DNA of 64,000 bases from contig NZ_WIBF01000004.1 of NCBI RefSeq assembly GCF_009496005.1, positions 186,001 to 250,000 on the forward strand, read 5' to 3'. The translations under genes and the position numbers were made by a program. Under the pieces are notes generated by a model. It had not been told where the DNA came from. It did no database searches and worked only from the letters and a program-made list of their open reading frames with translations. This document shows positions 10,649-53,806 of this stretch, one piece after another (position 1 is the stretch's first letter; every line of letters begins with the position of its first letter). The DNA is from Tritonibacter litoralis. Its GTDB lineage: Bacteria; Pseudomonadota; Alphaproteobacteria; Rhodobacterales; Rhodobacteraceae.

Positions 10649-10726
10649 TTCTCCCGCCCGTATCGGACCATTCTGACGAATGATCCTCTCCCGTTGGGCA
10701 TGGCGCCGGGCTGACGCCCGGCGCGG
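10649..10726 (+). repeat. Dispersed two-hairpin element, copy A
   Basis: Box 1 CTCCCGCCCG (10651-10660), a weak first hairpin (GGACCATTC...GAATGATCC), box 2 CCGTTGGGC (10691-10699), then a perfect 9-bp stem GCGCCGGGC/GCCCGGCGC with loop TGAC (10703-10724). It lies 36 bp after the DUF2798 stop, same orientation, and forms a head-to-head pair with copy A'. Together the two fill most of the 314-bp gap between DUF2798 and polA. Confidence 0.85.
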
Positions 10727-10806
10727 CGTAAGACGAGAGCGGCCGTGACCGTCAAATCCAAATAAAGATAGGCGATCAGGCAGCTAAAACGTCTGGCGTG
10801 CCACAA

Positions 10807-10887
10807 CCGCGCCGCGCGTCAGCGCGGCGCTACGCCCAACTGCGAGGCGCTCCTCTGCCAAGAGGAGGCGCTGGAGCAGGCGGGAGC
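10807..10887 (-). repeat. Dispersed two-hairpin element, copy A' (inverted)
   Basis: Read on the minus strand: box 1 CTCCCGCC (10879-10886), an imperfect hairpin around GGAGGCGC/GCGCTCC, box 2 GTTGGGC (10834-10840), and a 9-bp stem GCGCCGCGC/GCGCGGCGC with loop TGAC (10809-10830). It starts 42 bp after the polA stop, in polA orientation. Confidence 0.82.
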
Positions 10888-10928
10888 CCCTGTCTGCTTC
10901 TTTACACCAGCGCCTGGGCCAAACGCTC

Positions 10929-13730
10929 TTAATGCGCCTCGGCCCAGTTCTGACCGCGGCCCGCGTCGACCACCAGTTTCACATCCAGATGCACCGCCGG
11001 ATCGGCGGCACCTTCCATGGTGGCTTTGGCCACTGCAATTGTCTCTTCCACCGCCGCCTCCGGCACTTCAAACAGCAGTTCGTCGTGCACCTGCAACAAC
11101 ATCCGCGCGGGCAGATGCGCAATCGCCTCGGGCATCCGGATCATCGCCCGGCGGATCACATCGGCCGCGGTGCCTTGGATCGGCGCATTGATTGCCGCCC
11201 GTTTGGCAAACCCCGCCTTGGGCCCTTTGGCGGCAATCTCGGGCGTGTGGATCTTGCGGCCAAACAGCGTCTGCACATGACCGTGTTCCTTGGCGAACTC
11301 GACCGTTGTATCCATATAGCGGCGAATGCCCGGAAACCGTTCGAAATAGCGGTCAATGAACCCTTGCGCCTCTTTGCGCGGGATCCGCAGGTTGCGCGCC
11401 AGGCCAAAGCCCGAGATCCCGTAGATCACACCAAAGTTGATCGCCTTTGCCTGACGCCGAATGTCCGGCGTCATCTCCTCCAGCGGCACATCAAACACCT
11501 CAGAGGCGGTCATCGCGTGAATGTCCTGGCCTTGGGCAAAGGCTTCTTTCAGCGTCTCGATCCCCGCCACATGGGCGAGAATGCGCAATTCGATCTGGGA
11601 ATAGTCCAGCGACAACAAAACATTGCCGGGCTCTGCCACAAAGGCCTCGCGGATGCGGCGGCCTTCCTCGCTACGCACGGGAATGTTCTGCAGGTTCGGA
11701 TCGCTTGAGGCCATCCGACCCGTATTGGCCCCGGTCTGCAAATAGGACGTATGCACCCGGCCCGTATCCGGATTGATGTGATCCTGCAGCGCGTCGGTAT
11801 AGGTTGATTTCAACTTGGACAGCTGCCGCCAGTCCAGCACCTTGCCCGGCAGATCATGTTCGGTGGCCAGATCCTCCAGAATATCCGCTCCGGTGGAGTA
11901 CTTGCCGGTCTTGCCGCGCTTGCCACCGGGCAGAGACATCTTGTCAAACAGGATCTCCCCCAGCTGCGCCGGTGAGCCCACATTAAACGCCTCCCCGGCC
12001 AGATCGTGGATTTCCGCCTCCAGCCCCGCCATTTTTTGGGCAAAGGAGTTGGACATCCGGCTCAACGTCTCGCGGTCCACTTTGATGCCATGCATCTCCA
12101 TCTCGGCGAGAACCGGCACCAGAGGGCGCTCCAAGGTCTCGTAAACCGTGGTCACCTGGCGTTGGTGCAGCTTGGGCTTGAACTGTTGCCACAAGCGCAG
12201 GGTGATGTCGGCGTCCTCGGCGGCATAGGCCGTGGCATCATCGATAGCCACTTTGTCAAAGGTGATCGCGGATTTGCCAGAACCCAACAGCGGTTTGATC
12301 GGGATCGGCGTATGGTCCAGATAGCGTTCGGACAGCGTGTCCATCCCATTGCCATGCTCACCGCCATGCAGCGCATAGGACATCAGCATCGTGTCATCGA
12401 TGGGGGCCACCGTGACGCCATAACGGGTAAAGATTTTGGCGTCATATTTGATGTTCTGGCCGATTTTCAGGATCGCAGGATCTTCCAGCACTGGCTTTAA
12501 CATGGCCAGCGCGTCGTCGAGTGGCATCTGACCTTCGGCCAACCCGTCGCCGCCAAACAGATCATCTTCCCCCGCCTTGTGGGTCAGCGGGATATAGCAG
12601 GCCGATCCTGCCTCCACACAGAGCGAGATCCCAACCAGATCCACCAGCATTTCATTCAGGCCGGTGGTCTCGGTATCCACGGCAACCCAGCCTCGCTCGC
12701 GGATCTGGTCAATCCATACCTGCAACGCAGCGGCGTCGCGGACGCATTCATATTTGCTGGCATCAAAGGGCACGGCTTCCGGCGCAGCCACTTCGGCCAC
12801 CGCAGCGGGCGCTTCAGCAATTGTCGGGGCCTCCATGCCCAGCTGATCCGCCATCCGTTTGGAGAGGGTGCGAAACTCCATCTCTGCCAAAAAGCCCAAC
12901 AACACCTCAGGCTCTGGCTCTTTGACCTCCAGATCCGCCAGGGTGAAATCCAGCTCCATGTCGCAATCCAGCTGCACCAGCTGTTTGGACAGTTCAATCT
13001 GGTCGCGTTTGTCGATTAGGGTCTGGCGGCGTTTGGGCTGTTTGATCTCTTCAGCGCGGTCCAGCAGGTCTTCGAGCGAGCCGTATTCATTGATCAACAG
13101 CGCCGCCGTTTTGATCCCGATGCCGGGCGCGCCGGGGACGTTATCGACACTGTCGCCTGCCAAGGCCTGCACATCCACCACCCGTTCCGGGCCGACGCCA
13201 AATTTCTCCACCACGCCGTCGCGGTCGATGCGTTTGTTCTTCATCGCATCCAGCATCTCGACGCCATCGCCCACCAGCTGCATCAGATCCTTGTCCGAGC
13301 TAATAATGGTACACCGCCCGCCCGCGGCCCGCGCCTGACAGGCCAGCGTTGCAATAATATCGTCCGCCTCAAAACCTTCGATTTCCTTGCAGGCAATATT
13401 AAACGCTCGCGTCGCATCCCGCGTCAGCGGAAACTGTGGGCGCAGATCCTCGGGCGCCGGCGGGCGGTTGGCCTTATATTGATCATAAAGGTCGTTGCGA
13501 AAGCTCTTGCCCGAGTGATCAAAGATCACAGCTACGTGCGTTGGCGCATCGGGCCCAGTGTTCCCCTCGACATAGCGCTGCAGCATGTTGCAAAATCCTG
13601 AAACCGCGCCAATCGGCAAACCGTCGGATTTCCGCGTCAGCGGCGGCAGCGCATGATAAGCCCGGAAGATAAATGCAGAACCATCGATAAGATGCAGGTG
13701 ACAGCCTTTGCCGAATTCAGTATTGCTCAT
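10929..13730 (-). CDS. polA: DNA polymerase I
   Basis: A 933-residue three-domain DNA polymerase I for replication primer removal and repair. Order: 5'-3' exonuclease (about 10-290), 3'-5' exonuclease (about 350-530) and polymerase (about 560-930). The proofreading motif VDTETTGL keeps the metal-binding DxE, so the 3'-5' exonuclease is probably active, unlike in some bacteria. Polymerase motif A (DYSQIELRILAH) and motif C (VHDELLFE) are intact. The start at 13730 is favoured by a GGAGAAG ribosome site and gives the family-typical N-terminus; the open frame extends 56 codons further without conservation. Its start is only 37 bp from that of a divergent secreted-protein gene. Confidence 0.97.
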   Translation of the reverse strand: MSNTEFGKGCHLHLIDGSAFIFRAYHALPPLTRKSDGLPIGAVSGFCNMLQRYVEGNTGPDAPTHVAVIFDHSGKSFRNDLYDQYKANRPPAPEDLRPQFPLTRDATRAFNIACKEIEGFEADDIIATLACQARAAGGRCTIISSDKDLMQLVGDGVEMLDAMKNKRIDRDGVVEKFGVGPERVVDVQALAGDSVDNVPGAPGIGIKTAALLINEYGSLEDLLDRAEEIKQPKRRQTLIDKRDQIELSKQLVQLDCDMELDFTLADLEVKEPEPEVLLGFLAEMEFRTLSKRMADQLGMEAPTIAEAPAAVAEVAAPEAVPFDASKYECVRDAAALQVWIDQIRERGWVAVDTETTGLNEMLVDLVGISLCVEAGSACYIPLTHKAGEDDLFGGDGLAEGQMPLDDALAMLKPVLEDPAILKIGQNIKYDAKIFTRYGVTVAPIDDTMLMSYALHGGEHGNGMDTLSERYLDHTPIPIKPLLGSGKSAITFDKVAIDDATAYAAEDADITLRLWQQFKPKLHQRQVTTVYETLERPLVPVLAEMEMHGIKVDRETLSRMSNSFAQKMAGLEAEIHDLAGEAFNVGSPAQLGEILFDKMSLPGGKRGKTGKYSTGADILEDLATEHDLPGKVLDWRQLSKLKSTYTDALQDHINPDTGRVHTSYLQTGANTGRMASSDPNLQNIPVRSEEGRRIREAFVAEPGNVLLSLDYSQIELRILAHVAGIETLKEAFAQGQDIHAMTASEVFDVPLEEMTPDIRRQAKAINFGVIYGISGFGLARNLRIPRKEAQGFIDRYFERFPGIRRYMDTTVEFAKEHGHVQTLFGRKIHTPEIAAKGPKAGFAKRAAINAPIQGTAADVIRRAMIRMPEAIAHLPARMLLQVHDELLFEVPEAAVEETIAVAKATMEGAADPAVHLDVKLVVDAGRGQNWAEAH

Positions 13731-13767
13731 CACATTCTTCTCCAAGCTTCGTTCTCCGTTTACTGAC

Positions 13768-14298
13768 ATGTTCCGCTTTGTTCTACCAGCCGCTCTTTTT
13801 GTCTTGGGCACATCTTCGGGCTTTGCGGCCCCTTCTGATGAGGCGACGCAGCAGCGTGACCTCCAGGCCAAGTTTCCGCCCTGTGATCCAACCGCCACAA
13901 CTGGCCAGCATTGTATGCGTGTCCTCGCCTGTATCGGGGATGATGGGCTGTACTTTGACGGTCAGGCACGCGGCGATGCGGTGGGCTTGATCCTGGGACG
14001 GACCAGCGACGGCGTGTCCTGTTCCGGTCATTGGAGCAATGTGCACGGCACCGACAGCCGCGGCGAGGGGCGTGCGCGCCTGAAATGCGGCGACGGTTCG
14101 CGGTTTCACCTGGTCTATGATAGCCGCGATCGGCAGGCAGGCACACACATCGGCGTCGGCAAAGACAGCAATGGCCGCATGATCCGCGCTTGGACCGGCG
14201 ATGATGTGCTGCATTTCCTGAGCGATGAAAATGATCGCCCGTCCTTAAAATGCGGTGACCGGATGGTGCCGCTGCAGGACGAAGCGCGGATCGATTAA
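13768..14298 (+). CDS. Secreted Cys-rich protein of unknown function, paralogue 1
   Basis: A 176-residue protein with an N-terminal signal peptide (MFRFVLPAALFVLGTSSGFA, then processed form). The mature part has Cys at conserved spacing: CDPTATTGQHC, VLAC, SCSGHW, LKCGDG and a C-terminal CGDR. Its sequence parallels the following gene almost throughout, so the two are a tandem duplication. Not recognised as any named family. The start at 13768 is preferred because it gives a clean signal peptide and nearly the same length as the paralogue (177); an earlier Met at 13708 lies inside polA. Likely periplasmic or secreted. Confidence 0.75.
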   Translation: MFRFVLPAALFVLGTSSGFAAPSDEATQQRDLQAKFPPCDPTATTGQHCMRVLACIGDDGLYFDGQARGDAVGLILGRTSDGVSCSGHWSNVHGTDSRGEGRARLKCGDGSRFHLVYDSRDRQAGTHIGVGKDSNGRMIRAWTGDDVLHFLSDENDRPSLKCGDRMVPLQDEARID

Positions 14299-14320
14299 GT
14301 TTTTTTAAAAGAGGTGTTTT

Positions 14321-14854
14321 ATGTCTTTTCTTTTGCGCTCCACCCGGTTTTGTCTTGCCAGCATTGCCTTCATCTTGGGAGGTCTTTCGCTGACAACAGC
14401 GCCTGTGGCAGCGCAAACGGTTTTAGCCAAAACGCAAACCGGCAGCATTTTCCCCAAGAATTGCAAGGCCCAACCGGGGCGGTCGGACTCGTGCACACTG
14501 GTTTTGGCTTGCATGGACGATGGGAATATCTTTGTTGGAACGGCCACCGGTTGGTTGCGTGGAGATCTGTCTGTCAGAAGCGACAGGGGAACCAGCTGCT
14601 CCGGCAGTTGGTTTATTCAAAACACCAACAGCAACCACGGGCAGGCCGGGTTTGAATGTAGCGATGGCCGCGCCGGTCAGGCCCAATTTTCTTACTTTGA
14701 CGCGGCCACCTCATCGGTTTGGGGCGACGGAGAGTTATCGGATGGAACGCCGTTTCGGGCCTGGACCGGACCGCATTTGCGGCGTTTTGTGAAAAACAAC
14801 CGACTGGATGTGACGACTTTCTGCCCGACGCTTTTGTTGGGGGCCATAAATTAA
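14321..14854 (+). CDS. Secreted Cys-rich protein of unknown function, paralogue 2
   Basis: A 177-residue paralogue of the preceding gene, starting 22 bp after its stop behind a GAGG ribosome site. It has a signal peptide (about residues 1-31, ending APVAAQ), then shared features with paralogue 1: two Cys before LVLAC, a G-A-G-...-RSDRGTSCSGSW block, CSDGR, and GxGELSDGTPFRAWTG near the C-terminus (GVGKDSNGRMIRAWTG in paralogue 1). Function unknown. The two genes are probably co-transcribed. Confidence 0.78.
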   Translation: MSFLLRSTRFCLASIAFILGGLSLTTAPVAAQTVLAKTQTGSIFPKNCKAQPGRSDSCTLVLACMDDGNIFVGTATGWLRGDLSVRSDRGTSCSGSWFIQNTNSNHGQAGFECSDGRAGQAQFSYFDAATSSVWGDGELSDGTPFRAWTGPHLRRFVKNNRLDVTTFCPTLLLGAIN

Positions 14855-14911
14855 GCGCCAACTGCTTGTGTCGGCATATGCCGTGCCAACATGAGATTTG
14901 ACAAATGAAAA

Positions 14912-14929
14912 CGCGCCCCTTGGGGCGCG
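14912..14929 (-). terminator. Terminator of the CHCC zinc-finger gene
   Basis: Perfect 8-bp stem CGCGCCCC/GGGGCGCG with a TT loop. On the minus strand it is followed by TTTTC, giving a weak rho-independent terminator 45 bp after the zinc-finger gene stop. It sits between two convergent genes and may serve both. Confidence 0.65.
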
Positions 14930-14974
14930 CCACAAGCCGAGAGTCGGCTGCCATTCGTCGGATAAGGTTTTCGC

Positions 14975-15157
14975 TCAGGCGACCTGATCAACAAAATCCC
15001 GGTGGATGTATTTGCAGTCGCAATAGGGGCAGATCACATAGCCCACGTCTTTGGGGATTTGCAGGTAGACGCGGGGATGGCCCAATGCGCCTTCGCTGCC
15101 GTCACATGCAACACGGTAGCTATCCACGATCTTGGTTTCACGCGCTTCAGTGCTCAT
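14975..15157 (-). CDS. CHCC zinc-finger protein
   Basis: A 60-residue protein of the zf-CHCC family. The zinc ligands are visible as VACDG, GHPRVYL, then CPYCDCKY, the Cys-His-Cys-Cys pattern. The same domain occurs in the NDUFS6-type accessory subunit of respiratory complex I, and free-standing versions are common in Alphaproteobacteria. The start MSTEARETK at 15157 is chosen over a longer open frame. It is divergent from an ABC ATPase across 71 bp. Confidence 0.85.
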   Translation of the reverse strand: MSTEARETKIVDSYRVACDGSEGALGHPRVYLQIPKDVGYVICPYCDCKYIHRDFVDQVA

Positions 15158-15228
15158 CGCTGGCGATCCTCTTGGTTTTCGTATAGGCGCAGTTATGAGC
15201 CAAGCCAAAACCGGGGGCAAGTGTTGGT

Positions 15229-16161
15229 ATGAGCGAAGATGCAATCCGTTTGGAATCGCTGCGGAAAACCTACAAAGGGCGCAAAGGTCAGCCCGAGAAA
15301 CACGCGCTCAAAGGCGTGGATCTCAATATTCCGCGGGGGTCCGTTTTTGGGCTTCTGGGGCCAAATGGTGCGGGAAAGTCTACTTTGATCAATATCTTGG
15401 CCGGTCTGGTCAAGAAAACCAGCGGGCGTGTGTCGATCTGGGGGTTTGATCAGGACGAAAACCCGCGCCAGTCCCGCGCCTCGATTGGAGTGATGCCGCA
15501 GGAATTGAACCTCGATCCGTTCTTTACGCCGCGCGGCGCGCTTGAGGTGCAGGCAGGTCTTTATGGGGTGCCAAAAGCGGACCGGTACAGCGATGAGATT
15601 CTGCGGATGATCGGGTTGGAAGACAAGGCTGAGGCCTATGCCCGCACCCTGTCCGGCGGCATGCGGCGTCGGCTTCTGTTGGGCAAGGCGCTGGTGCACC
15701 GCCCCAATATTCTGGTGCTGGATGAACCAACTGCGGGCGTTGATATCGAATTGCGCCAGATGCTGTGGGACAATATCCGCAAGCTGAATGCGCAGGGGAT
15801 GACCATTATCCTGACCACACATTACCTCGAAGAGGCTGAGGAGATGTGTGACGAGATCGCAATCATCAATCAGGGCAGCGTGGTTGCGCGCGACACCACC
15901 GCCAATATGCTGGGCCGTCTGGACGGGCGCGCCATGGTGGTCCATCCCGCCAGCCCGGTGGAAACCCTGCCACAGGGGCCGGGGATTGAAACCGAACTGC
16001 GCCCGGATGGCTCGGTTGTTCTGCGCTATCGCAGCCAGGTGACCACCGCCGAAGCCGTGCTGGAAACGGTGCGCGCCGCTGGGATTTCAATCCGGGACGT
16101 CAAAACCGAAGAGGCCGACCTCGAAGACGTGTTCCTGTCGCTCACCTCGTCGCTGGGATAG
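15229..16161 (+). CDS. ABC-2 type transporter ATP-binding protein
   Basis: A 310-residue ABC ATPase of the multidrug/polysaccharide ABC-2 exporter type. Walker A is GPNGAGKST (about 44-52), the signature is LSGGMRRRL, Walker B is NILVLDEPTAGVD, and the H-loop is TTHYLEEAEEM. A C-terminal extension of about 80 residues is typical of this class. The permease it should energise is not beside it: the next gene is an FAD oxidoreductase and the previous one a zinc-finger protein. It either works with a distant permease or the permease has been lost. Confidence 0.9.
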   Translation: MSEDAIRLESLRKTYKGRKGQPEKHALKGVDLNIPRGSVFGLLGPNGAGKSTLINILAGLVKKTSGRVSIWGFDQDENPRQSRASIGVMPQELNLDPFFTPRGALEVQAGLYGVPKADRYSDEILRMIGLEDKAEAYARTLSGGMRRRLLLGKALVHRPNILVLDEPTAGVDIELRQMLWDNIRKLNAQGMTIILTTHYLEEAEEMCDEIAIINQGSVVARDTTANMLGRLDGRAMVVHPASPVETLPQGPGIETELRPDGSVVLRYRSQVTTAEAVLETVRAAGISIRDVKTEEADLEDVFLSLTSSLG

Positions 16162-17765: not shown

Positions 17766-18860
17766 ATGGGGCAAATGCTGCTGTTGAGCGAGGTATCCGG
17801 ACGACTGATGGGGCTGTTCGGACTTGTGTCCCTAGCGTTGGGGATCAAAGCGTATCAAGCGGGGACATCCACCTGGAGCTATGATTCCCTGATTTTTGTA
17901 GGCGGCCTGTGTTTTGCCTTTAGCCTGCTCTACTTGCTGCCCCGTACCCACCGCATGGTGATGCGTGTGACTCATCCATTTGGCCTGCGATTGCTGTTTG
18001 CCAAGTTCAGTGTGTTCTGGATGGCTGCAAACATGTTGTTTGCCGTTGATGCACAGGAGGGCAATGTGATTGCGGCTCATCCGGGCCTCAAAGCGGTGCT
18101 TTTCCTGTTGCTTATTGGGCTGCCTCCGGTGGTTTTTCTGCTGATGTATTTCCCCGTGGGCCTGTCATATCGTGCCCAAAGGCTGCGGCGCGAGGCGCTT
18201 GTGGCACAGCCCACATTGCCCAAAGTGAAACATCGCACCGTCCAATCAGACCAATCAGATCGGCGACGGCCAATGGCCGATGTCGCGCCCTCTGTGGAAC
18301 CCAGCGCCCAACGCGGGTCGGTTTGGGTATGGCTGCCTTTGGCTCTGGTGACGGCGGTTGTGGTCTGGGTCAATGCAGAGATGACGGTGATCCCTTCACC
18401 GGATTACCTGCGGTTTGTTTCCACCTACCTGTGGCTGTTGATGGCTGGGATCTTTGTGTTGCTGTTCCTGCTCCCTTTGCGCAGCATGGCGCGGCACGGT
18501 CGGTCGCTGTTTGCGATGCCAAAGATCCTGGTTGTTGCTGGGATGGTGCCTTTGTTTCTTTTTGTGGCGGGAAACCTGATCTATGTGACGCTTCCCGCAG
18601 CCGAGGTGCTGGCGCGCGGGTCCTTTCCCCATAGTGATTTGGAGTATCACGTGCGTGCCGTTGAGGCCGGTTCCGAGGCGCAGCTTTGTCTGGATCTGGA
18701 ACATCTGAGCCGCGCGCAGCGGCCGGTGCCAATTTGCGTGTCTTCGCAGGCTGATCTTCAGGTCGATGACACCGTTACGATTCGCGGCCCCTTGGGGTTT
18801 TGGGGACAAGAGGTGCGAGAGGTGCGCCCCCTGCTGCGAGACGGCAAGAAGCAAGGTTGA
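17766..18860 (+). CDS. Membrane protein of unknown function
   Basis: A 364-residue protein with about six to seven hydrophobic segments in two groups (residues 1-145 and 190-300), separated by a charged linker (about 150-185, rich in R, Q, S, D). A C-terminal soluble part of about 80 residues has a Cys pair (AQLCLDLEHL and VPICVSS) and a beta-rich end (DDTVTIRGPLGFW). Not recognised as a named family. The start ATG at 17766 follows a strong TTTGGAGGTG ribosome site; an upstream TTG is less likely. A dispersed repeat begins 9 bp after the stop. Confidence 0.72.
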   Translation: MGQMLLLSEVSGRLMGLFGLVSLALGIKAYQAGTSTWSYDSLIFVGGLCFAFSLLYLLPRTHRMVMRVTHPFGLRLLFAKFSVFWMAANMLFAVDAQEGNVIAAHPGLKAVLFLLLIGLPPVVFLLMYFPVGLSYRAQRLRREALVAQPTLPKVKHRTVQSDQSDRRRPMADVAPSVEPSAQRGSVWVWLPLALVTAVVVWVNAEMTVIPSPDYLRFVSTYLWLLMAGIFVLLFLLPLRSMARHGRSLFAMPKILVVAGMVPLFLFVAGNLIYVTLPAAEVLARGSFPHSDLEYHVRAVEAGSEAQLCLDLEHLSRAQRPVPICVSSQADLQVDDTVTIRGPLGFWGQEVREVRPLLRDGKKQG

Positions 18861-18869: not shown

Positions 18870-18942
18870 CTCCCGCCCGGTTTTACCCTTTTGAAAAAAG
18901 GGCATAACCCGTTGGGCCGGGCGCCGCGCTGGTGCGCGGCGG
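18870..18942 (+). repeat. Dispersed two-hairpin element, copy B
   Basis: Box 1 CTCCCGCCCG (18870-18879), hairpin 1 with an AT-rich stem (TTACCCTTTT/AAAAGGG-TAA), box 2 CCGTTGGGC (18909-18917) and an 8-bp GC stem GCGCCGCGC/GCGCGGCG with loop TGGT (18921-18941). It begins 9 bp after the upstream gene and has the same orientation. Confidence 0.87.
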
Positions 18943-33553: not shown

Positions 33554-33710
33554 CTCCCGCCCGTCTTCGATCTAAAGATCTCATCCCGTTGGGCCAAGCG
33601 CCGCTGTCGCGGCGAGGGCACGCCTGACCATAGGGCTTTCATCTTTTTTAAAAATACTTCGGGGTGAATTGGCCGCCAGGCCAAGAGGGGCAGAGCCCCC
33701 GCCTCCCTCA
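33554..33710 (+). repeat. Dispersed element copy C, extended composite
   Basis: Box 1 (33554-33563), hairpin GATCT-AA-AGATC (33569-33580), box 2 CCGTTGGGC (33586-33594), and stem CGCCGC/GCGGCG with loop TGTC. It continues with a second module: CATCTTTTTT-AAAAATACTTC, GGCCGCCAGGCC and GGGGCAGAGCCCC, ending at the zapE stop codon. It is near-identical to copy D in the opposite orientation; the first 61 bases differ at one position. Confidence 0.9.
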
Positions 33711-34775
33711 GGCTTTGCCCCAATCCTTGTCCTGCATTTCCCGCAGCCGACTGGCGGTGCGTTCAAATTCGAACACGCCTTCGCCTTCCAGATACAGAAA
33801 CTCAGGCTCCGCCGCAGCCGAACAGATCAGCCGCACCCGTGCTTCATAAAGCGCATCAATCAGGGTCACAAACCGCTTGGCCTCGTTGAAATTGCTGCGG
33901 CTGAGACTTGGGATATCTTCCAGGATCAGGACCTTCACCTTTTCGGCAATGGCCAAATAGTCACCGGGGCCCAGCATCTTGCCACAGAGGTCAAAGAACC
34001 GGGCGCGGGCCACGCCATTGCGGAAGGCGGGCAATTCCACCACGCGGCCTTTGACTTCCAATTCCAACGGTGCGCCAACGCCGCCGGACAGGTCGGCCCA
34101 GATCGACTGGATCTGCGCGCGCGCCTCGGCGTTGTTTGGTGAGAAATAGACCTGCGAACCGGTCAGCCGGTCCTGGCGGTAATCCGTCGGAGAGGCCATC
34201 TCCCAGACCTGCATCTTCTCTTTGATAAGATCGATAAAAGGCAGGAACAATTGCCGATTAAGCCCGTCCTTGTAGAGGTCATCCGGCACCCGGTTGGATG
34301 TGGTGACCACGGTTACCCCGGCCTCAAACAACGCCTCAAACAGACGCCCCACAATCATCGCGTCGGTAATATCGGTGATCTGCATCTCGTCAAATGCCAG
34401 AAGTCGCACCGATTCTGCCACCTCGCGCACCACAGGCGCCAATGCGTCTGCTGTGTGTTTTTGCCGGGCCACATGCATCTGGGCGTGGATTTCCTGCATA
34501 AAGGCGTGAAAGTGCACGCGGCGGTTTGGAATATCGCCCAGGCTTTCAACAAAGAGATCCATCAACATAGATTTGCCGCGTCCGACGCCGCCCCACAGAT
34601 ACAGCCCCTTGACCGCCTGAGGTTGGGCCTTGCGAAACAGCCCCCGTTTGACCGGGGCCGCCCGCAGGCCGGTTCCGATCCGGTCAAACTCGGGGATCAC
34701 GGCGGTTTGGGCGGGATCCGGGCGGATGTCTCCAGCGTCTGCCTTCGACTGGTAAAGAGCGTGCAATGTGGTCAT
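33708..34775 (-). CDS. zapE: Cell division ATPase ZapE (AFG1-like)
   Basis: A 355-residue AFG1/ZapE-type AAA ATPase, associated with the divisome and with stress on Z-rings in other bacteria. Walker A is GGVGRGKSM (62-70), Walker B is LLAFDEMQITD, and the sensor region TTSNRVPDDLYKDGLNR is intact. Its stop codon coincides with the edge of repeat copy C. It is convergent with folC. In many relatives zapE lies beside mdh; here it sits between two inverted repeat composites together with an MFS gene. Confidence 0.93.
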   Translation of the reverse strand: MTTLHALYQSKADAGDIRPDPAQTAVIPEFDRIGTGLRAAPVKRGLFRKAQPQAVKGLYLWGGVGRGKSMLMDLFVESLGDIPNRRVHFHAFMQEIHAQMHVARQKHTADALAPVVREVAESVRLLAFDEMQITDITDAMIVGRLFEALFEAGVTVVTTSNRVPDDLYKDGLNRQLFLPFIDLIKEKMQVWEMASPTDYRQDRLTGSQVYFSPNNAEARAQIQSIWADLSGGVGAPLELEVKGRVVELPAFRNGVARARFFDLCGKMLGPGDYLAIAEKVKVLILEDIPSLSRSNFNEAKRFVTLIDALYEARVRLICSAAAEPEFLYLEGEGVFEFERTASRLREMQDKDWGKA

Positions 34776-35054: not shown

Positions 35055-36317
35055 ATGACCCAGCCAGCAGCCGCAAACCCGGCCCGGCCCCTGCCGCTTT
35101 TTACGCCCGTTTTGATTGTGGGCTGTGTGATCATCATGGTCAGCTTTGCGGTGCGCGCCTCTTTTGGGGTGTTTCAAATTCCCATCGCAGAAGAGTTCGG
35201 CTGGGCGCGCGCCGAGTTTTCGCTGGCCATCGCAATCCAGAATCTGGCTTGGGGTGTCGGTCAGCCGATTTTTGGCGCTTTGGCCGAACGGATCGGGGAT
35301 CGCAAAGCGATCATTCTGGGCGCGATCATCTATGCGGTTGGTCTGGTTCTAAGCGCAGGCGCCACCACACCCGGTGCCATGCAGGCCTATGAGTGGCTGG
35401 TGGGCTTTGGCGTCGCAGGCACAGGTTTTGGAGTGGTTCTGGCCGTGGTGGGCCGGTCAAGTTCAGATGAAAATCGCTCGATGTCCTTGGCCATTGTCAC
35501 GGCTGCGGGCTCTGCCGGGCAGATCATCGGTGCGCCAACAGCGGAATGGCTGTTGTCCTTCCTCAGCTGGCAGGTGGTGTTTGTGATCTTTGCCGCCACG
35601 GTTTTGTCGTTGATCCTGACCCTGCCGCTGATGCGCGCACCTGCTATGGCCAGCAAGGCAGAACTGGAAGAGAGCCTGGGCGGCATCCTGAAGAAGGCAA
35701 TGAAAGACCCGAGCTATACGCTGATCTTTCTGGGCTTTTTCAGCTGTGGTTATCAACTCGCCTTTATTACCGCGCATTTCCCTGCTTTCGTGACGGAAAT
35801 GTGTGGCCCGATCATGCCCGGCAGCCTGCTGCATGGGATCGGGGTGACGACAACATCGGCGCTTGGGGCGGTGTCGATTGCCCTGATCGGAGCTGCAAAT
35901 GTCGGCGGCACGCTGCTTGCGGGCTGGGCTGGAAAGCGGTTTTCCAAGAAATATCTGTTGGCGGGTATCTACCTGGCCCGGACCATTGTCGCGGCGGCTT
36001 TCATCCTGATGCCGATCACGCCGCTGTCGGTGATTGTGTTCTCGATCGTCATGGGGTCTTTGTGGCTGGCCACAGTGCCGCTGACCTCGGGGCTGATCGC
36101 GCATATCTACGGGCTGCGTTATATGGGAACACTTTATGGGATTGTGTTTTTCAGTCACCAGCTGGGTGGTTTCCTGGGCGTTTGGCTGGGTGGGCGGATG
36201 TATGATGTCTACGGGGATTATACTTTTGTTTGGTGGATTGGCGTTGCCGTTGGAGCCTTCAGCGCAATTGTGCATCTGCCGGTGAAAGAACGGCCCCTGA
36301 CAGCGGTTGCGGCGTGA
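35055..36317 (+). CDS. MFS transporter
   Basis: A 420-residue major facilitator with 12 predicted helices. The loop 2-3 region reads GALAERIGDRKAIILG, a degenerate form of the MFS motif A. The overall order resembles oxalate/formate or monocarboxylate-type MFS carriers (VRASFGVFQIPIAEEFGW at the start), so an organic acid is a reasonable guess, but the substrate is not known. A good AAGGA ribosome site precedes the ATG. Its stop codon sits at the edge of repeat copy D, just as the zapE stop sits at the edge of copy C. Confidence 0.9.
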   Translation: MTQPAAANPARPLPLFTPVLIVGCVIIMVSFAVRASFGVFQIPIAEEFGWARAEFSLAIAIQNLAWGVGQPIFGALAERIGDRKAIILGAIIYAVGLVLSAGATTPGAMQAYEWLVGFGVAGTGFGVVLAVVGRSSSDENRSMSLAIVTAAGSAGQIIGAPTAEWLLSFLSWQVVFVIFAATVLSLILTLPLMRAPAMASKAELEESLGGILKKAMKDPSYTLIFLGFFSCGYQLAFITAHFPAFVTEMCGPIMPGSLLHGIGVTTTSALGAVSIALIGAANVGGTLLAGWAGKRFSKKYLLAGIYLARTIVAAAFILMPITPLSVIVFSIVMGSLWLATVPLTSGLIAHIYGLRYMGTLYGIVFFSHQLGGFLGVWLGGRMYDVYGDYTFVWWIGVAVGAFSAIVHLPVKERPLTAVAA

Positions 36318-36466
36318 GGGTGGAGGGGGCTCTGCCCCTCTTGGCCTGCGGCCAATTCACCCCGAAGTATTTTCAAAAAGATGAAATCCATGCCGGGCAC
36401 ACCCGCGCCGCGATAGCGGCGCTTGGCCCAACGGGATGAGATCTTTAGATCGAAGACGGGCGGGAG
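36315..36466 (-). repeat. Dispersed element copy D, extended composite (inverted relative to C)
   Basis: On the minus strand: box 1 (36457-36466), hairpin GATCT-AA-AGATC, box 2 (36426-36434), stem CGCCGC/GCGGCG with loop TATC (36406-36421), then the second module ending in GGGGCAGAGCCCCC at the MFS stop. It contains the final codons and stop of the ornithine-cyclodeaminase-like gene. Confidence 0.9.
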
Positions 36467-37383
36467 CCTTTGGCTGTTTCTTGCCACAGCGACAGGATAT
36501 GGCGGGCGGTCATCAGGTCCAGATGGGCGCCGCCGCCGTTTTTAAACAGGGTGATCTGATCTGTATCGAAGTTTGGGAATTGCTCCAGCCCATAGAAGTC
36601 TGCCTTCACATCCGAGCGTGAGATTACGCCCGCTGCCAATGGCAAGGCAAATTCGCCGATATGATCCAATGTGGTGTCAAAACTGTCGGTATAGATCTTG
36701 GACCGTATGAGAGCAGCGTCATCGGCTTCCCGCATATCGGGGCGGTAGGCCCCGATCATGTTGAGATGTTGCCCCGGGCGCAGCCATTCGCCCTGGATCA
36801 CCGGAGTTTGTGTCATTGTGCAGGTGACAATGATGTCCGCCTGCCGCACCGCTGGTTCAAGATCCGCAGCAACTGCGATATCGGGATAGGTTTTGGCCAG
36901 GGCTTCGGCCTTGGCCTGTGTCCGGTTCCAGATCCGGATTTGCGCGGTGTCATAGCAGCTCGAAAACGCTTCGATCAGCGAGGCCGCCACGGTGCCTGCG
37001 CCGACGATCAGGATCTCTTTGGCCGCTGGATTGGCCAAGCGCAATGCTCCCAGCAGGCTGTCACCGGCCGTTTTCCATTTGGTAACCAGATGAAAATCAA
37101 CCAAGGCTTCGGGCAGGCCGGTTTTATCGGCATAAAGCACAACCGAACCATTGATCGGCGCTTCACCGTGTTCTGGGTTGTTCGGGAAGATATTGGCGGT
37201 TTTTACGGCCATCCCAAGCCCATCGATCCAGGCTGCGCGGCTCAAAAGCGTATCCTCACCCCGATATAGGAATGTATCGCCGATCTCCGCTTTGGGGTGG
37301 TCGTGCCCCTTGGCCAGTGCCTCTGTCAAACCCCGCCAATCCAGCAGCGCTTCCCCTTCTGCAAATGAAATAGATGGCAGCAC
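36445..37383 (-). CDS. Ornithine cyclodeaminase / mu-crystallin family protein
   Basis: A 312-residue Rossmann-fold protein of the OCD/mu-crystallin family, whose members deaminate ornithine or reduce cyclic ketimines such as pyrroline-2-carboxylate. The conserved Lys is in LVTKWKTAGDSLLGA (near 103), and the nucleotide-binding loop is LIVGAGTVAASL (near 130). The start is GTG at 37383, directly after the HAD stop, with GAGGAGG inside the upstream gene. The last eight residues (KGSRPSSI) are encoded by repeat copy D. The exact substrate is unclear; a ketimine reductase is likely. Confidence 0.88.
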   Translation of the reverse strand: MLPSISFAEGEALLDWRGLTEALAKGHDHPKAEIGDTFLYRGEDTLLSRAAWIDGLGMAVKTANIFPNNPEHGEAPINGSVVLYADKTGLPEALVDFHLVTKWKTAGDSLLGALRLANPAAKEILIVGAGTVAASLIEAFSSCYDTAQIRIWNRTQAKAEALAKTYPDIAVAADLEPAVRQADIIVTCTMTQTPVIQGEWLRPGQHLNMIGAYRPDMREADDAALIRSKIYTDSFDTTLDHIGEFALPLAAGVISRSDVKADFYGLEQFPNFDTDQITLFKNGGGAHLDLMTARHILSLWQETAKGSRPSSI

Positions 37384-39141: not shown

Positions 39142-39212
39142 GCAGCGCCGTCAGGCGCTGCCCGGCCCAACGGCCGTCAGGGGATCTGTGATCCCCGTGC
39201 GGCGGGCGGGAG
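39142..39212 (-). repeat. Dispersed two-hairpin element, copy E
   Basis: Minus strand: box 1 CTCCCGCCCG (39203-39212), hairpin GGGGATC-aca-GATCCCC, box 2 CCGTTGGGC (39165-39173), 8-bp stem GCAGCGCC/GGCGCTGC with loop TGAC (39142-39161). It starts 22 bp after the DUF188 stop, same orientation. Confidence 0.88.
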
Positions 39213-43190: not shown

Positions 43191-43265
43191 CTCCCGCCCG
43201 TCGTCGGATCACTAGTGTGATCCGCTTCCGTTGGGCGTGGCCCTGCACCCTGTCGGGTGCAGGGC
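43191..43265 (+). repeat. Dispersed two-hairpin element, copy F
   Basis: Box 1 CTCCCGCCCG (43191-43200), hairpin CGGATCAC-tagt-GTGATCCG, box 2 CCGTTGGGC (43228-43236) and an 11-bp stem GCCCTGCACCC/GGGTGCAGGGC with loop TGTC (43240-43265). It is unusual in lying in a divergent promoter region rather than after a gene. Confidence 0.9.
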
Positions 43266-43302: not shown

Positions 43303-43378
43303 CGCGCCGCGCGTTGCGCGCGGCGCTTGGCCCAACAGAGGAGGGGCAGTCTGTGACTGTCTCCGGATTTGGCGGGAG
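43303..43378 (-). repeat. Dispersed two-hairpin element, copy F' (inverted)
   Basis: Minus strand: box 1 CTCCCGCC (43371-43378), a poorly paired first arm, box 2 GTTGGGC (43330-43336) and a 10-bp stem GCGCCGCGCG/CGCGCGGCGC around a 3-nt loop (43304-43326). It forms a head-to-head pair with copy F. The pair fills much of the 426-bp AEC-TetR gap; the remaining bases show only a weak GAAC-N6-GTTC repeat at 43451-43464. Confidence 0.8.
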
Positions 43379-49406: not shown

Positions 49407-49526
49407 AAAGGGCTCCGGTCTGGGTCAATTTAGGTCCCGCCAGAGTAACCCGACCGTTTCATGCTGCAAACCTTTTACTCAGAAAATCAACCAAGTGGCG
49501 AACAAACATGCCAAATCATCAAAGGA

Positions 49527-49907
49527 TTAGACGGATAAATCATGCTGGTCCCAAATCGCGGTCAGCGAGCGTTCGCCAACACGGATCAAACGGAACAGAA
49601 CCGCCGCAATTGCAGGCTGATCCTCGGCGTCGATGGCCAAGGTCACATCGCGTGCGATGTTTGCCATGGCGGTCATGCCGATCTGATCTGCGATCGCAAT
49701 CAAGGAACGCGAACTTTTTCTTAAGTTTGACATATCATTGTGCCGCCACAGGCGTTCACAATGGGTCAACCGCACGGCGAGCTCTTCGATCGCGCGGCAA
49801 ACCACATCTTCGGCTCCGCGTTCACCGAGCTCGTTATAAAGGTCCGACAGTTTGTCAGGATCCAGGCGCACGGTTTCTGTGTGCACAACAGTGAGAATAT
49901 TAGCCAC
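49527..49907 (-). CDS. Small helical protein, possibly Hpt-like
   Basis: A 126-residue all-helical protein of unknown function. The segment CERLWRHNDMSNLRKSSRSL followed by IAIADQIGMTAMANIARDV resembles the four-helix Hpt (histidine phosphotransfer) arrangement, with a His at the expected place, but the match is loose. The start is chosen as GTG 49907 because GGGGTG lies just upstream; several other GTG codons up to 49946 are possible. Divergent from carbonic anhydrase. Confidence 0.6.
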   Translation of the reverse strand: MANILTVVHTETVRLDPDKLSDLYNELGERGAEDVVCRAIEELAVRLTHCERLWRHNDMSNLRKSSRSLIAIADQIGMTAMANIARDVTLAIDAEDQPAIAAVLFRLIRVGERSLTAIWDQHDLSV

Positions 49908-50063
49908 CACTTTCACCCCAAAAATTTTTGTGCCCCCACGGCACACAGGCCAATTTGCGCCCGAACAGTTTTCAAAAGGTTTCTACGGGGGTTCGAAATA
50001 TCTCGAATTTGCTAACAAATCAGGGTATCACGCTCGCTAGGCGTCAACTCAGGGACCGTAAAC

Positions 50064-50714
50064 ATGCAATTTGCCAAACCTCTCCCGAGCTATCTGGTCA
50101 CGCGTTACCATGGTTGGAAAGCGACCACATATGATGAAAACCAAGGCTGGTATCGCCGCCTGGCAACCGAGGGGCAGCGCCCCCGTGCGATGGTGATTTC
50201 CTGCTGTGACAGCCGGGTACATGTCACGTCGATTTTTGGCGCCGATCAGGGTGAGTTCTTTATCCACCGCAATATTGCCAATCTGGTGCCGCCTTTTGCG
50301 CCCGATGGGGACCACCATGGCACCTCGGCTGCGGTGGAATATGCGGTGACCGCGCTGAAGGTGTCGCATTTGATCGTGCTGGGCCATTCCCAATGTGGCG
50401 GAGTACAGGGCTGTATCGACATGTGCAAAGGCAAAGCCCCGCATCTGGAAGAGAAAACCAGCTTTGTTGGCCGCTGGATGGATATCTTGAAACCCAAGTT
50501 CGCTGGGGTTGCGGATATTGATGATGAAGTCGAACAAGCCCGCCAGTTCGAGCGTCAGGCGGTTGTGGCGTCACTGGAGAACCTGATGACCTTCCCCTTT
50601 ATCGACGATGCGGTCAAAGCCGGCCAGCTGAGCCTGCATGGGCTGTGGACGGATATCGGTGAGGGCGGGCTGGAAGCCTATGATCCCAAATCCGGTGGTT
50701 TTGCGCCCGTTTAA
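50064..50714 (+). CDS. Beta-class carbonic anhydrase
   Basis: A 216-residue zinc enzyme that interconverts CO2 and bicarbonate. Zinc ligands are Cys47 (CCDSR, 47-51), His108 and Cys111 (GHSQCGG); Asp49 and Arg51 form the usual dyad. No signal peptide, so cytoplasmic. It could supply bicarbonate to carboxylases such as acetyl-CoA carboxylase. An AGGGA element precedes the ATG. Confidence 0.95.
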   Translation: MQFAKPLPSYLVTRYHGWKATTYDENQGWYRRLATEGQRPRAMVISCCDSRVHVTSIFGADQGEFFIHRNIANLVPPFAPDGDHHGTSAAVEYAVTALKVSHLIVLGHSQCGGVQGCIDMCKGKAPHLEEKTSFVGRWMDILKPKFAGVADIDDEVEQARQFERQAVVASLENLMTFPFIDDAVKAGQLSLHGLWTDIGEGGLEAYDPKSGGFAPV

Positions 50715-50751
50715 CCGGTGTGACCGCAGGGTTAGGGCGGTCTGAATGACC

Positions 50752-51891
50752 TCAACCCAAATGGCGCGCGGCCTCGGCATAGCCACCGGCCGCGCCATCC
50801 ACAAAATGGATGTGATCATCCGTAAAACTTGACGGAACAATGCAGGTCATCACGGCGGATGCCTGTTCATGATAACCAAATCGGATAATACCATCGGCCT
50901 GCGCCTGATTGAGGCGCGTCAACAGCTGGTCGCGAATCTCGGGGCTGCAATCCAGCGTCATCTTGAGCCCATCGTCAAACTTTCGAAAATCCGCATTGCG
51001 GGACAGAATGCGCCGGTAATGCACCGGGTCAAACCCCCCCGGTTTAAGGCCAAGCGCAAAAACACCCCAGACCAGCATATTGACCGCAATCAATTGTGCG
51101 GTGGCCCAAAGGGTCGGCTTGCCCTGGCGTGTCAACCGTGCCTCGTTGCGGAAACCGCGGGCTGGCAGGGCTAGGTCCGGGCCGTCTTCTGGCACCGGGT
51201 GGCCGTGGCGGTCCAATTTGGCTGCCAAAGACAGAACCTCATCGGCAATGGCAGCAAATTCGCGGTGCTGTGTGTGATCCTGCGGCAGCACCAATAGTGA
51301 CAGGATGGTGCCGTTTTTGGATTGAATATTGTTCCAGCGACACGACAGACCGGTCAGATCAGGGGGCACGGCGTTGCTGGCCGGAGGGACTTCGAATCCG
51401 CCAAGCTTCATCTGCTGTTCAGCCCAGGCCAGACCACCGCCGTTGAACATGGCGTAATCGGCTTCGGGGCCCACAGCATAGCGGGCAACGGTGACATCAT
51501 AGCCTTCGTCGCGGATCCATTTCACGGGAATCAGGGCCGCCCGTAATGAAATCGCAAACTCCCGGTCGACCCAGGCCCGCAGGCGCGCCAAAGTCTCCCG
51601 CGCCTGATGCTCAAATTCGCGCGGCACCGCAAAGGAAGCGCCGTCACCTGCAAAAACATAGGGAAACGCACGGTGGGACAGCGCGTTCAGCATGGCCGTG
51701 ATCACCGCGGCGGCAATCATATTCACAGTGCGATATTTCCCCTGTGCAATAAGGCCACGGCTGTCGACAATATCGGTACAACAAATCAGCCAGTTTTCCG
51801 GCAAAGGCTTAAAACAGCTGGGCCGCGCCAGTTGATCAAAGTCATCCACGCGGGACAAATTCTCATAAAAGTGGCTGGTCGTTTGCGCCAT
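50752..51891 (-). CDS. DUF3095 protein, cyclase-like N-terminal region
   Basis: A 379-residue soluble protein of the DUF3095 family. Near the N-terminus, CCTDIVDSRGLI and then FPYVFAGDGASFAVP resemble the two metal-binding Asp motifs of class III nucleotide cyclases (D-I/F and GDG), which suggests a cyclase-like fold. Whether it makes a nucleotide is unknown. It converges on carbonic anhydrase with 37 bp between stops. Confidence 0.85.
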   Translation of the reverse strand: MAQTTSHFYENLSRVDDFDQLARPSCFKPLPENWLICCTDIVDSRGLIAQGKYRTVNMIAAAVITAMLNALSHRAFPYVFAGDGASFAVPREFEHQARETLARLRAWVDREFAISLRAALIPVKWIRDEGYDVTVARYAVGPEADYAMFNGGGLAWAEQQMKLGGFEVPPASNAVPPDLTGLSCRWNNIQSKNGTILSLLVLPQDHTQHREFAAIADEVLSLAAKLDRHGHPVPEDGPDLALPARGFRNEARLTRQGKPTLWATAQLIAVNMLVWGVFALGLKPGGFDPVHYRRILSRNADFRKFDDGLKMTLDCSPEIRDQLLTRLNQAQADGIIRFGYHEQASAVMTCIVPSSFTDDHIHFVDGAAGGYAEAARHLG

Positions 51892-52176
51892 GGAAACTGG
51901 GAACCTATGTCAAACCGATAGAAACAGACTTAGCGTGCCTTTGCTGTATGGCCAATGGGGCAGGGACGCCGATTGTCCCAGAAAGAATCGCCCTTGGTTG
52001 CGGCCCAATCAGCCCTTTGGGGGATATTGCCATAATGTTTGGTACGATTCCCGGAAAACGATACAATATTGTGTTACATTGCCGACTGCGGATGGGCTGC
52101 CGCTCTTTAATTGTCCGGGCATTCCTTTTAAGACAGCAGCGCTGGTCATGGGACCACATACATCTGGAGAAACAAA

Positions 52177-53199
52177 ATGGGTTATCGCGTCGTTGTCGTT
52201 GGCGCCACTGGGAACGTGGGCCGCGAAATGCTGAACATTCTGGCAGAGCGCCAGTTTCCGGTCGAAGAAATTGCAGTTCTGGCGAGCCGCAAATCCTTGG
52301 GCACTGAGGTTACATTTGGCGAAACGACCCTGAAGACCCAGGATCTGGATACTTTTGATTTTGCCGGTTGGGACATGGCGCTGTTCGCCGTGGGCTCTGC
52401 CGCGACCAAGGATTACGCGCCCAAAGCGGCTGCGGCGGGCTGTGTGGTGATCGATAACTCGTCTCTGTACCGTTATGATCCTCAGATCCCGTTGATCGTT
52501 CCGGAAGTGAACCCGCAGGCGGTGCACGACTATAAGAACAAGAACATCATCGCCAACCCGAACTGTTCGACCGCGCAGATGGTTGTGGCGCTAAAGCCGC
52601 TGCATGACCGCGCCAAGATCAAACGCGTCGTGGTTTCGACCTATCAATCTGTGTCGGGGTCGGGCAAGGCCGCCATGGAAGAGCTGTGGGACCAGACCAA
52701 AGCGGTCTATAACCCCACCTCGGATGTGCCGCCGAAGGTCTACCCCAAGGAAATCGCGTTCAACGTGATCCCGCATATCGATGTGTTCCTGGATGATGGC
52801 TCCACCAAGGAAGAGTGGAAGATGGTTGCCGAGACCAAGAAGATCATCGACACCTCGATCAAGGTCACTGCGACCTGTGTGCGGGTGCCGGTCTTTGTGG
52901 GCCATTCCGAGGCGGTGAACATCGAGTTTGAAGATTTCCTGGACGAAGATGAAGCGCGCGACATCCTGCGCGAGGCACCGGGCATCATGGTGATCGACAA
53001 GCGCGAAGACGGTGGCTATGTCACCCCCAAAGAATGCGTTGGCGACTTTGCCACGTTCATCAGTCGCCTGCGTCAGGACCCAACCGTTGAAAACGGCCTG
53101 AACCTGTGGTGCGTCAGCGACAATCTGCGCAAAGGGGCGGCGCTGAATGCGGTACAGATCGCAGAACTGCTGGGCCGCGAGGTCCTGAAGAAGGGCTGA
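52177..53199 (+). CDS. asd: Aspartate-semialdehyde dehydrogenase
   Basis: A 340-residue NADP-dependent enzyme that reduces aspartyl phosphate in lysine, threonine, methionine and diaminopimelate synthesis. The nucleotide loop is VGATGNVGREM (8-18), the catalytic Cys130 lies in NPNCSTAQ, and CVRVPVFVGHSEAVN holds the substrate-binding Arg and His. A strong TCTGGAG ribosome site precedes it. The 285-bp upstream gap contains an AT-rich palindrome (ACAATATTGT, 52063-52072), a likely promoter area, and no gene. Confidence 0.97.
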   Translation: MGYRVVVVGATGNVGREMLNILAERQFPVEEIAVLASRKSLGTEVTFGETTLKTQDLDTFDFAGWDMALFAVGSAATKDYAPKAAAAGCVVIDNSSLYRYDPQIPLIVPEVNPQAVHDYKNKNIIANPNCSTAQMVVALKPLHDRAKIKRVVVSTYQSVSGSGKAAMEELWDQTKAVYNPTSDVPPKVYPKEIAFNVIPHIDVFLDDGSTKEEWKMVAETKKIIDTSIKVTATCVRVPVFVGHSEAVNIEFEDFLDEDEARDILREAPGIMVIDKREDGGYVTPKECVGDFATFISRLRQDPTVENGLNLWCVSDNLRKGAALNAVQIAELLGREVLKKG

Positions 53200-53347
53200 T
53201 CTGGCGAGAAAAGCCAGGAACACACAACCAAAAGGATAGAGGGCGCTTCGGAAGAGGTGCCCTCTCGTCTTTTGCGGGAATGGGCGGGGTCCGGGATATC
53301 TGTCAAATTTGACTCATCTTCAATCTTTGACACATGGGAGATCGGTC

Positions 53348-53704
53348 ATGTTTATCTGTAAATCGTTCACTAACACGCGGAATGAAGAGCAGTTGAATAT
53401 GGCTCAGTCGCCCTGGGCCAGCGCCAGTGTGGGACGGCGGCTGGACAGTGAATTGGCAAGTCAGTTGCGCATTTTACTGCGGCCAGAGTTTGAAGCGGCA
53501 CAAAGTTGGAGCGATTTGTGTCTGGCCCTAAAAGCAAAGGGTTTCAGTCTCCGGGTAGAGCAGGGCCGACTGCGATTGGTGGACAGTTTGAGCCGCGTTG
53601 ATATCTGCTCTACCGGGTATCTGGGCTTTCCGATTGGGCAATTGGAACACGTTTTTGGCGTGAGGTTGCAGGAAGCCAATTGGGAGATCTGTGCGGTGGG
53701 ATGA
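53348..53704 (+). CDS. Small protein of unknown function
   Basis: A 118-residue soluble protein. The conserved-looking core is LRPEFEAAQSWSDLCLALKA, followed by KGFSLRVEQGRLRLVD and GYLGFPIGQLEHVFGVRL. It is not recognised. The start at 53348 follows a GGGAG site; ATG 53399 is an alternative. It stands alone after asd; a dispersed repeat follows its stop by 23 bp. Confidence 0.7.
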   Translation: MFICKSFTNTRNEEQLNMAQSPWASASVGRRLDSELASQLRILLRPEFEAAQSWSDLCLALKAKGFSLRVEQGRLRLVDSLSRVDICSTGYLGFPIGQLEHVFGVRLQEANWEICAVG

Positions 53705-53727
53705 CAGATCTTGGGGTTAAGGACGCG

Positions 53728-53806
53728 CTCCCGCCCGGTTTCATCGGGGCAAAGCCCCCATAAACCCCGTTGGGCAAAGCAGCCCGCCCCAAAAGGGCGG
53801 GCTGCT
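53728..53806 (+). repeat. Dispersed two-hairpin element, copy G
   Basis: Box 1 CTCCCGCCCG (53728-53737), hairpin GGGGC-aaa-GCCCC (53746-53758), box 2 CCGTTGGGC (53767-53775), and a 12-bp stem AGCAGCCCGCCC/GGGCGGGCTGCT (53778-53806). It lies 23 bp after a plus-strand gene and 20 bp before the livM stop, so it sits between convergent ends. Confidence 0.88.

Follow-up and report, generated by a model that had tools for sequence, protein, structure and literature searches.

A structured two-box element at gene ends in Tritonibacter litoralis and related roseobacters, with hairpin 1 probably folded on the strand opposite the gene

Among the described systems of hairpins that follow bacterial genes, the attC sites of integrons, the REP/BIME repeats with their RAYT proteins, and the U-tract terminators come closest to the element treated here, which recurs nine times in a 64,000-nucleotide (nt) stretch of Tritonibacter litoralis (Rhodobacteraceae; NCBI RefSeq assembly GCF_009496005.1, contig NZ_WIBF01000004.1, forward-strand positions 186,001 to 250,000), henceforth called the window. 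In order, the element consists of CTCCCGCN, a variable hairpin 1, N'TTGGGC, three free bases, and a GC-rich hairpin 2, the two conserved stretches being referred to as box 1 and box 2. The integron attC consensus has an R'' box, RYYYAAC, complementary to an R' box, GTTRRRY. REP/BIME repeats are extragenic, lie 3' of genes, often form inverted pairs at convergent genes, and number tens to hundreds of copies, all of which the element shares; its stems, unlike theirs, differ between nearly all copies, and its places are conserved against a congener. U-tract terminators likewise set GC-rich hairpins after genes, whereas the element lacks a U tract on either strand, has a conserved core, and carries a hairpin 1 probably selected on the other strand; both can coexist.

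The likeness to attC, and to the attC-like motif OTH-22-1 described in PMC8632094, extends to a bottom-strand hairpin that follows a stop codon in gene orientation and varies in sequence while its structure is kept. Bottom-strand folding is found in the element for hairpin 1 and for the loops, with RNA and DNA not told apart, and box 2 of the element's type I (pair C8-G43) fits GTTRRRY. However, the element differs from attC in its core, CTCCCGCN with NTTGGGC (that core being the basis of the search), in a box 1 that does not fit RYYYAAC, in a type II (G8-C43) box 2, CTTGGGC, that does not fit GTTRRRY, in the extra hairpin 2, and in copies that are scattered, single or in opposed pairs, at places conserved against a congener. 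An integron integrase (TIGR02249) was found over the cut-off in none of 18 genomes; weaker matches in 17 of the 18 are presumably other tyrosine recombinases, because all 14 control genomes show them too. For the Y1 transposase (PF01797), the window's genome gave no match, and 18 of 198 family genomes have one, including 3 of the 15 with at least 10 copies of the element; a ProQ/FinO domain protein (PF04352) was found in none of the 198, with an Escherichia coli control giving a match. Membership of attC, REP/RAYT, U-tract terminators, or ProQ-bound 3' hairpins was consequently rejected, as each fails at least one tested feature.

Rfam returned no match at gathering in the window, and five further loci gave sub-gathering matches alone at E ≤ 1; one of the candidates, SorY (RF02651), was dismissed as chance (26.5 bits against a gathering score of 111, one copy, box 1 outside the aligned part). 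Among the matches listed by open-access library searches on the family, its boxes, or its setting, no title or abstract opening names the family, and the Rhodobacterales motifs HRC-8-4 and uORFC-8-2 are described in PMC8632094 with other gene neighbours. The initial annotation, a model's note on the window's sequence, had not recognised the element as a described family, and this judgement stands.

Fold, covariation, and the folded strand

The exact pattern CTCCCGCC N25-55 GTTGGGC occurs at 62 places in the 4.38-Mb genome, compared with 1 for the backwards pattern, and the wider core CTCCCGC N26-55 TTGGGC NNN GC at 97 places, compared with 1 reversed; by our own reading, the latter comprise 62 with C8-G43, 31 with G8-C43, one A-T, one G·T, one G·A, and one C·T (probably chance). 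The window's nine copies are thus about a tenth of those in the genome, and none of the nine is of the G8-C43 type. In the core, CCC faces GGG, G6 faces T45, C7 faces T44, and position 8 pairs with position 43. The composition of the core was counted in 204 copies obtained by a relaxed scan of 771,867 bases, mostly in loci around exact matches (up to three box mismatches, a GC following 3 nt later, and thresholds on folding), which gave 5 hits from reversed sequence and in which two cores recur, at most 4 times. The 8/43 pair is C-G in 154 of them, G-C in 41, A-T in 3, T-A in 1, and something else in 5, and the other core positions are nearly constant within the mismatches that the scan tolerated. 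Of 116 copies, 114 retain the pair two positions inward of 8/43, in the form G-C, C-G, A-U, U-A, or U-G, and hairpin 2 starts with GC in all 62 exact copies of the window's genome. Pairing of box 1 with box 2, raised in the initial annotation, agrees with the fit of CCC to GGG, which is invariant and so admits no covariation test, and with the covarying 8/43 pair. In 39 of 189 copies anchored on hairpin 2, the three spacer bases are complementary to the three bases past hairpin 2, and in 33 of these 39 GCCC follows, so that box 2 could pair downstream rather than with box 1.

Almost every one of the 62 exact copies has stems of its own sequence and length, yet the two halves match: hairpin 1 folds at a mean of -13.3 kcal/mol in the genome's own 62 copies, against -6.2 kcal/mol when halves are swapped between copies. 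In an unfitted MAFFT alignment of 22 copies, the covariation score is 0.298 versus 0.118 ± 0.014 after shuffling, which does not keep relatedness, and 79 double-change cells compare with 33.6 shuffled; further pair types in this alignment are not above shuffles (217/500). For 116 distinct copies aligned to a covariance model, an alignment that leans toward structure, the score is 0.500 versus 0.119 ± 0.006, with 650 double-change cells versus 204, and sliding the partners by 1–3 columns lowers it to 0.079 or less. The proposal in the initial annotation that the stems change in a compensatory manner, under selection on a single-stranded structure, is supported.

The strand on which this structure is folded can be read from imperfect pairs, since an A·C seen from one strand becomes G·T when seen from its complement. 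In hairpin 1, those non-Watson-Crick pairs that have Watson-Crick neighbours on both sides were counted, a procedure that favours neither type, and on the gene strand of the 204 copies A·C outnumbers G·U by 75 to 14 (per copy, 58 to 9 with 137 ties, p = 7e-10). The excess holds by origin (own genome 37:8, a congener, G198, 13:3, other genomes 25:3), by core type (type I 56:13, type II 19:1), and in the same direction in each of four gene contexts, including the '++' context without a convergent gene (12 versus 1); an overlapping earlier set gave 89 versus 15, and 26 versus 5 were counted when the 62 exact own copies were taken by themselves. As a positive control, 396 T-tract hairpins from the same loci, read on their own strand, have 162 G·U versus 112 A·C, a modest lean in the opposite direction. 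An antisense RNA solely from a convergent gene was rejected as the source, as the mismatch bias stays without such a gene.

Loops speak in the same direction. G..A loops are found on the opposite strand rather than the gene strand in 49 versus 7 cases for hairpin 1 and 65 versus 7 for hairpin 2, a bias absent from 87 perfect U-tract terminators (T..C 4, G..A 5); ANA triloops on the gene strand, which are T.T on the other, number 38 versus 14 in hairpin 1 and 23 versus 23 in hairpin 2. Loop types and hairpin-2 stems were counted in 211 of 248 exact-box matches. Another set kept 187 of 251 (3 had too little downstream sequence, and in 61 hairpin 2 had no uninterrupted stem of 6 bp or more), and what it left out includes some true copies, such as copy C of the window, and chance matches in unrelated phyla. 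Moreover, in the 248 exact matches, the opposite strand gives the stabler hairpin 1 in 188 cases versus 57 with RNA parameters and in 194 versus 48 with DNA parameters. Because A·C exceeds G·U in hairpin 1, T-tract hairpins lean the other way, and the loops are biased (114 versus 14), the fold of hairpin 1 is probably selected on the strand opposite the abutted gene.

Copies, gene ends, and inheritance

Exactly nine copies lie in the window (+ 10651, 18870, 33554, 43191, 53728; - 10886, 36466, 39212, 43378), and all of those named in the initial annotation are present, with both boxes, both hairpins, and the stems and hairpin-2 loops that it quoted. They are given below in window coordinates, the element strand being that from box 1 to box 2, with open reading frames (ORFs) called by our own codon-usage script and not taken from annotation.

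Copy A, 10651..10724, strand +: box 1 at 10651-10658, hairpin 1, box 2 at 10693-10699, hairpin 2; stop of a DUF2798 ORF 37 nt before; partner facing it by hairpin 2 is A'.
Copy A', 10809..10886, strand -: box 1 at 10879-10886, box 2 at 10834-10840; stop of a DNA polymerase I (polA-like) ORF, 10929-13745, strand -, 43 nt before.
Copy B, 18870..18942, strand +: box 1 at 18870-18877, box 2 at 18911-18917; ORF 17766-18860 ends 10 nt before, and a DNA polymerase III alpha-like ORF follows on the same strand; right end read from the hairpin.
Copy C, 33554..33614, strand +: box 1 at 33554-33561, box 2 at 33588-33594; Mur-ligase-domain (FolC-like) ORF 22 nt before; right end read from the hairpin.
Copy D, 36405..36466, strand -: box 1 at 36459-36466, box 2 at 36426-36432; overlaps the stop of ORF 36445-37383, strand - (ornithine cyclodeaminase family); same hairpin 1 as copy C.
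Copy E, 39142..39212, strand -: box 1 at 39205-39212, box 2 at 39165-39171; YaiI/YqxD family ORF 23 nt before.
Copy F, 43191..43265, strand +: box 1 at 43191-43198, box 2 at 43230-43236; divergent genes on either side; partner facing it by hairpin 2 is F'.
Copy F', 43304..43378, strand -: box 1 at 43371-43378, box 2 at 43330-43336; divergent genes on either side.
Copy G, 53728..53805, strand +: box 1 at 53728-53735, box 2 at 53769-53775; weak ORF 53348-53704 without a Pfam match ends 24 nt before.

As originally stated, seven of these copies begin no more than 45 bp from a stop codon and run in the orientation of the gene concerned; F and F' are the two exceptions. Copies C and D, with their common hairpin 1, are near-identical inverted repeats that include downstream sequence (33554-33720 and 36300-36466) and enclose an AFG1-ATPase gene and an MFS gene; G198 has copies arranged likewise. 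Behind copies C and D (33652, strand +; 36372, strand -) and in four other loci (L004, L010, L016, L025) stands a second repeat, composed of TTTCATCTTTTT-AAAATACTTCGGGG and subsequent GC-rich hairpins, with 6 clear and 2 chance-like places in 299,994 bases.

In the genome as a whole, the gene on the box-1 side is on the same strand in 46 of the 62 copies, with a median distance to its stop of 27.5 nt, and in 45 the gene on the far side is oriented back toward the element. The gene contexts of the 204 copies are +- in 113, -- in 35, ++ in 34, -+ in 13, and unclear in 9; for single copies in the '+-' and '++' contexts, box 1 lies at a median of 23 nt from the same-strand stop. Convergent genes often have one copy per gene, and among pairs within 300 bp, 47 have hairpin 2 facing hairpin 2 versus 3 facing the other way; one locus (L019) has a single hairpin 2 common to two opposed copies. 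Of 144 copies whose box-1 side has a sense gene, 16 have a U-tract terminator between that gene's stop and box 1 (2 of the 16 look like false calls); past hairpin 2, 7 of 153 have one on the sense strand. Such terminators are about equally frequent with and without a copy of the element, at convergent genes (14 of 42 versus 14 of 40) and at co-directional genes (6 of 13 versus 18 of 64, p = 0.21); the idea that the element stands in for them was rejected, there being no anticorrelation at either kind of gene end.

Among relatives, exact matches were found in 18 of 18 sampled genomes of the genus, the window's own included, with 5 to 98 in each. In the family sample, 65 of 198 genomes have at least one exact copy and 15 have at least ten (10 to 141), compared with up to 7 in one genome for the control, and a Rhodobacteraceae search by covariance model with strict filters, along the lines that the initial annotation had suggested, finds the element in 22 of the 198. 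A class sample of 289 genomes includes 4 of the family; among the other 285, 8 hold one match each. The matches listed include Phaeobacter, Leisingera, Ruegeria, Tritonibacter, Epibacterium, and Tropicibacter, as well as chance matches in unrelated phyla. One family member, G073, has 141 exact copies; the 100 of them that were listed include several sets of almost identical hairpins, which suggests duplication or conversion there; a replichore polarity hinted at by a first listing of this genome was not seen among those 100.

Flanking sequence places 34 of the 62 own copies against a best match at a copy in G198, involving 33 distinct of the 38 exact copies in that congener (both flanks in 27, upstream only in 3, downstream only in 4, one of them on 93 nt), at 68–88% flank identity and with stems that have changed for the most part. 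Because the G198 stretches were taken around exact matches, losses in that genome are not countable. Homology extends to the upstream flank in 30 of the pairs; of their 180 outer-helix positions, 82 are paired in each of the two species, and both sides have changed at 24 of the 82. The hairpin-2 loops are exactly inverted between the species (ATCT/AGAT, AAA/TTT) in 4 of 29 compared ortholog rows, at 3 places (L019/L273, L026/L259, L032/L271). The element is, in sum, vertically inherited and lineage-specific, concentrated in one family, with places conserved against one congener.

Candidate explanations and their consequences

We tentatively prefer, without calling it probable, a transcription-unit boundary that acts on the polymerase or RNA approaching the 3' end of the gene. 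The element would be a cis-acting mark of the unit's outer edge, with box 1 toward the unit and placed about 25 nt past the stop or, at some places, past the gene's own terminator. Its opposite strand would be read as RNA by a polymerase heading for the 3' end of the gene, through convergent read-through or pervasive antisense transcription, and the folded RNA may then stop or mark the antisense transcript, probably via a protein for which the CCC-GC/UU-GGG internal-loop helix and the next hairpin are the recognition site; the net effect would be an antisense-facing boundary or insulator.

Several observations weigh against this boundary. Hairpin 2 folds better on the gene strand (171 versus 72 of 248 with RNA parameters, 128 versus 90 with DNA parameters), its stem shows no significant strand preference (A·C 21 versus G·U 12, p = 0.16, 211 copies), and the two conserved non-pairs of the core are G·U and C·U on the gene strand, A·C and A·G on the other. 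A C-over-G skew of the gene strand could be the source of the A·C excess, an explanation that we disfavour because the inner loop bases are often G. The '++' and '--' contexts are almost even (34 versus 35), so orientation alone favours neither gene; in the latter, the left gene starts about 97–131 nt (medians) from box 1, a spacing that an outward-facing boundary allows, and small unannotated genes are possible there. No U tract was found past hairpin 2 (T fraction at most 0.31 over 40 positions, 189 copies) or past box 1 on the other strand (at most 0.40, 204 copies), so that the element has no known way to terminate transcription. No partner protein was found, the candidates tested (Y1 transposase, ProQ, integron integrase) having failed. 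On the megaplasmid of Ruegeria sp. TM1040, 99 kb (L320, L321), in a stretch partly syntenic with the window (sthA, YaiI, fghA), no credible copy was found with up to three box mismatches, so that a near relative does without the element there. Finally, folded-strand loops in both hairpins of the 211 copies are GNRA in 20 cases and GNYA in 72, and the rarity of GNRA, in our view, leans to DNA rather than RNA; loop identity is likewise used to weigh RNA against single-stranded DNA in Weinberg et al. 2010 (PMC2864571).

The main competitor, unlikely in our estimate and still to be taken seriously, is a bottom-strand hairpin of single-stranded DNA (ssDNA) bound by a DNA-binding protein, with the attC-like logic of structure plus short boxes and without attC membership. 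The strand evidence from hairpin-1 mismatches, the T-tract control, and the loops applies to it equally, and RNA would favour the same strand. Loops of the types c(GNYA)g, GNA, T.T, and CNNG are stable in DNA, and folded-strand loops in the 211 copies include all of these (in hairpin 2, 45 of 45 c(GNYA)g and 33 of 37 GNA loops are closed by C-G), with GNRA rare. The mismatches G·T, G·A, and G·G are the least destabilising in DNA and are the commonest on the folded strand (75, 36, and 25, respectively), although the DNA order of stability is broken by A·C exceeding T·T, 14 to 8. The inverted hairpin-2 loops are what template switching in ssDNA would give. Against ssDNA stand the lack of an integron integrase over the cut-off and of a Y1 transposase in the window's genome, and we know of no process that needs such ssDNA sites at gene ends. 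The same inverted loops would also suit a purely mutational origin of the covariation, in which template switching perfects imperfect palindromes with no selected function; a conserved core around fast stems, the strand bias of mismatches and loops, and the placement at gene ends make that origin highly improbable.

A sense-strand RNA in the 3' untranslated region (UTR) of the abutted gene, whether a U-less terminator, a 3'-end stabiliser, or a processing site, was the interpretation of the initial annotation, and we consider it rather doubtful. The same-strand gene close before 46 of the 62 copies agrees with it, as do the nearly perfect hairpin 2, whose stem lacks an opposite-strand preference, and the core G·U, a wobble on the sense strand. 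The association with gene 3' ends stood, but a sense-strand RNA is at odds with the A·C excess and loop bias, with copies lying past a U-tract terminator (16 of 144), with the lack of a U tract after the element, and with U-tract terminators being about as frequent at ends with a copy as without. The observation itself is confirmed and larger than was noted, and its earlier interpretation is partly supported. A dispersed repeat of the REP/BIME kind, kept by mobility, would account for the 10 to 141 exact copies in 15 of 198 genomes, the extragenic inverted pairs, and the near-identical hairpins of G073, and 3 of the 15 high-copy genomes (G007, G015, G089) have a Y1 transposase match; it is very unlikely, as neither the window's genome nor 11 others of the 15 has such a match, places are conserved against the congener, and the stems of nearly all own copies are unlike one another, in length as in sequence.

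Returning to the boundary, the loop types lean to DNA in our view and the placement at gene ends to transcription. The family may, as a claim that we advance with reserve, constitute a new class of genome-wide boundary element, namely, a structured RNA or ssDNA at the outer edge of genes, folded on the opposite strand, with its own predicted recognition protein, that shields gene ends from antisense and convergent transcription in roseobacters. If true, it would be a dedicated, sequence-light, structure-based, and outward-facing marker at about 100 places per bacterial genome, and it would offer a handle on the containment of antisense and convergent transcription as well as a search key for the nucleic-acid-binding protein. 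Even with the mechanism wrong, there would remain a large structured family, nameless in the Rfam gathering matches and the papers searched, whose stems turn over fast at conserved places.

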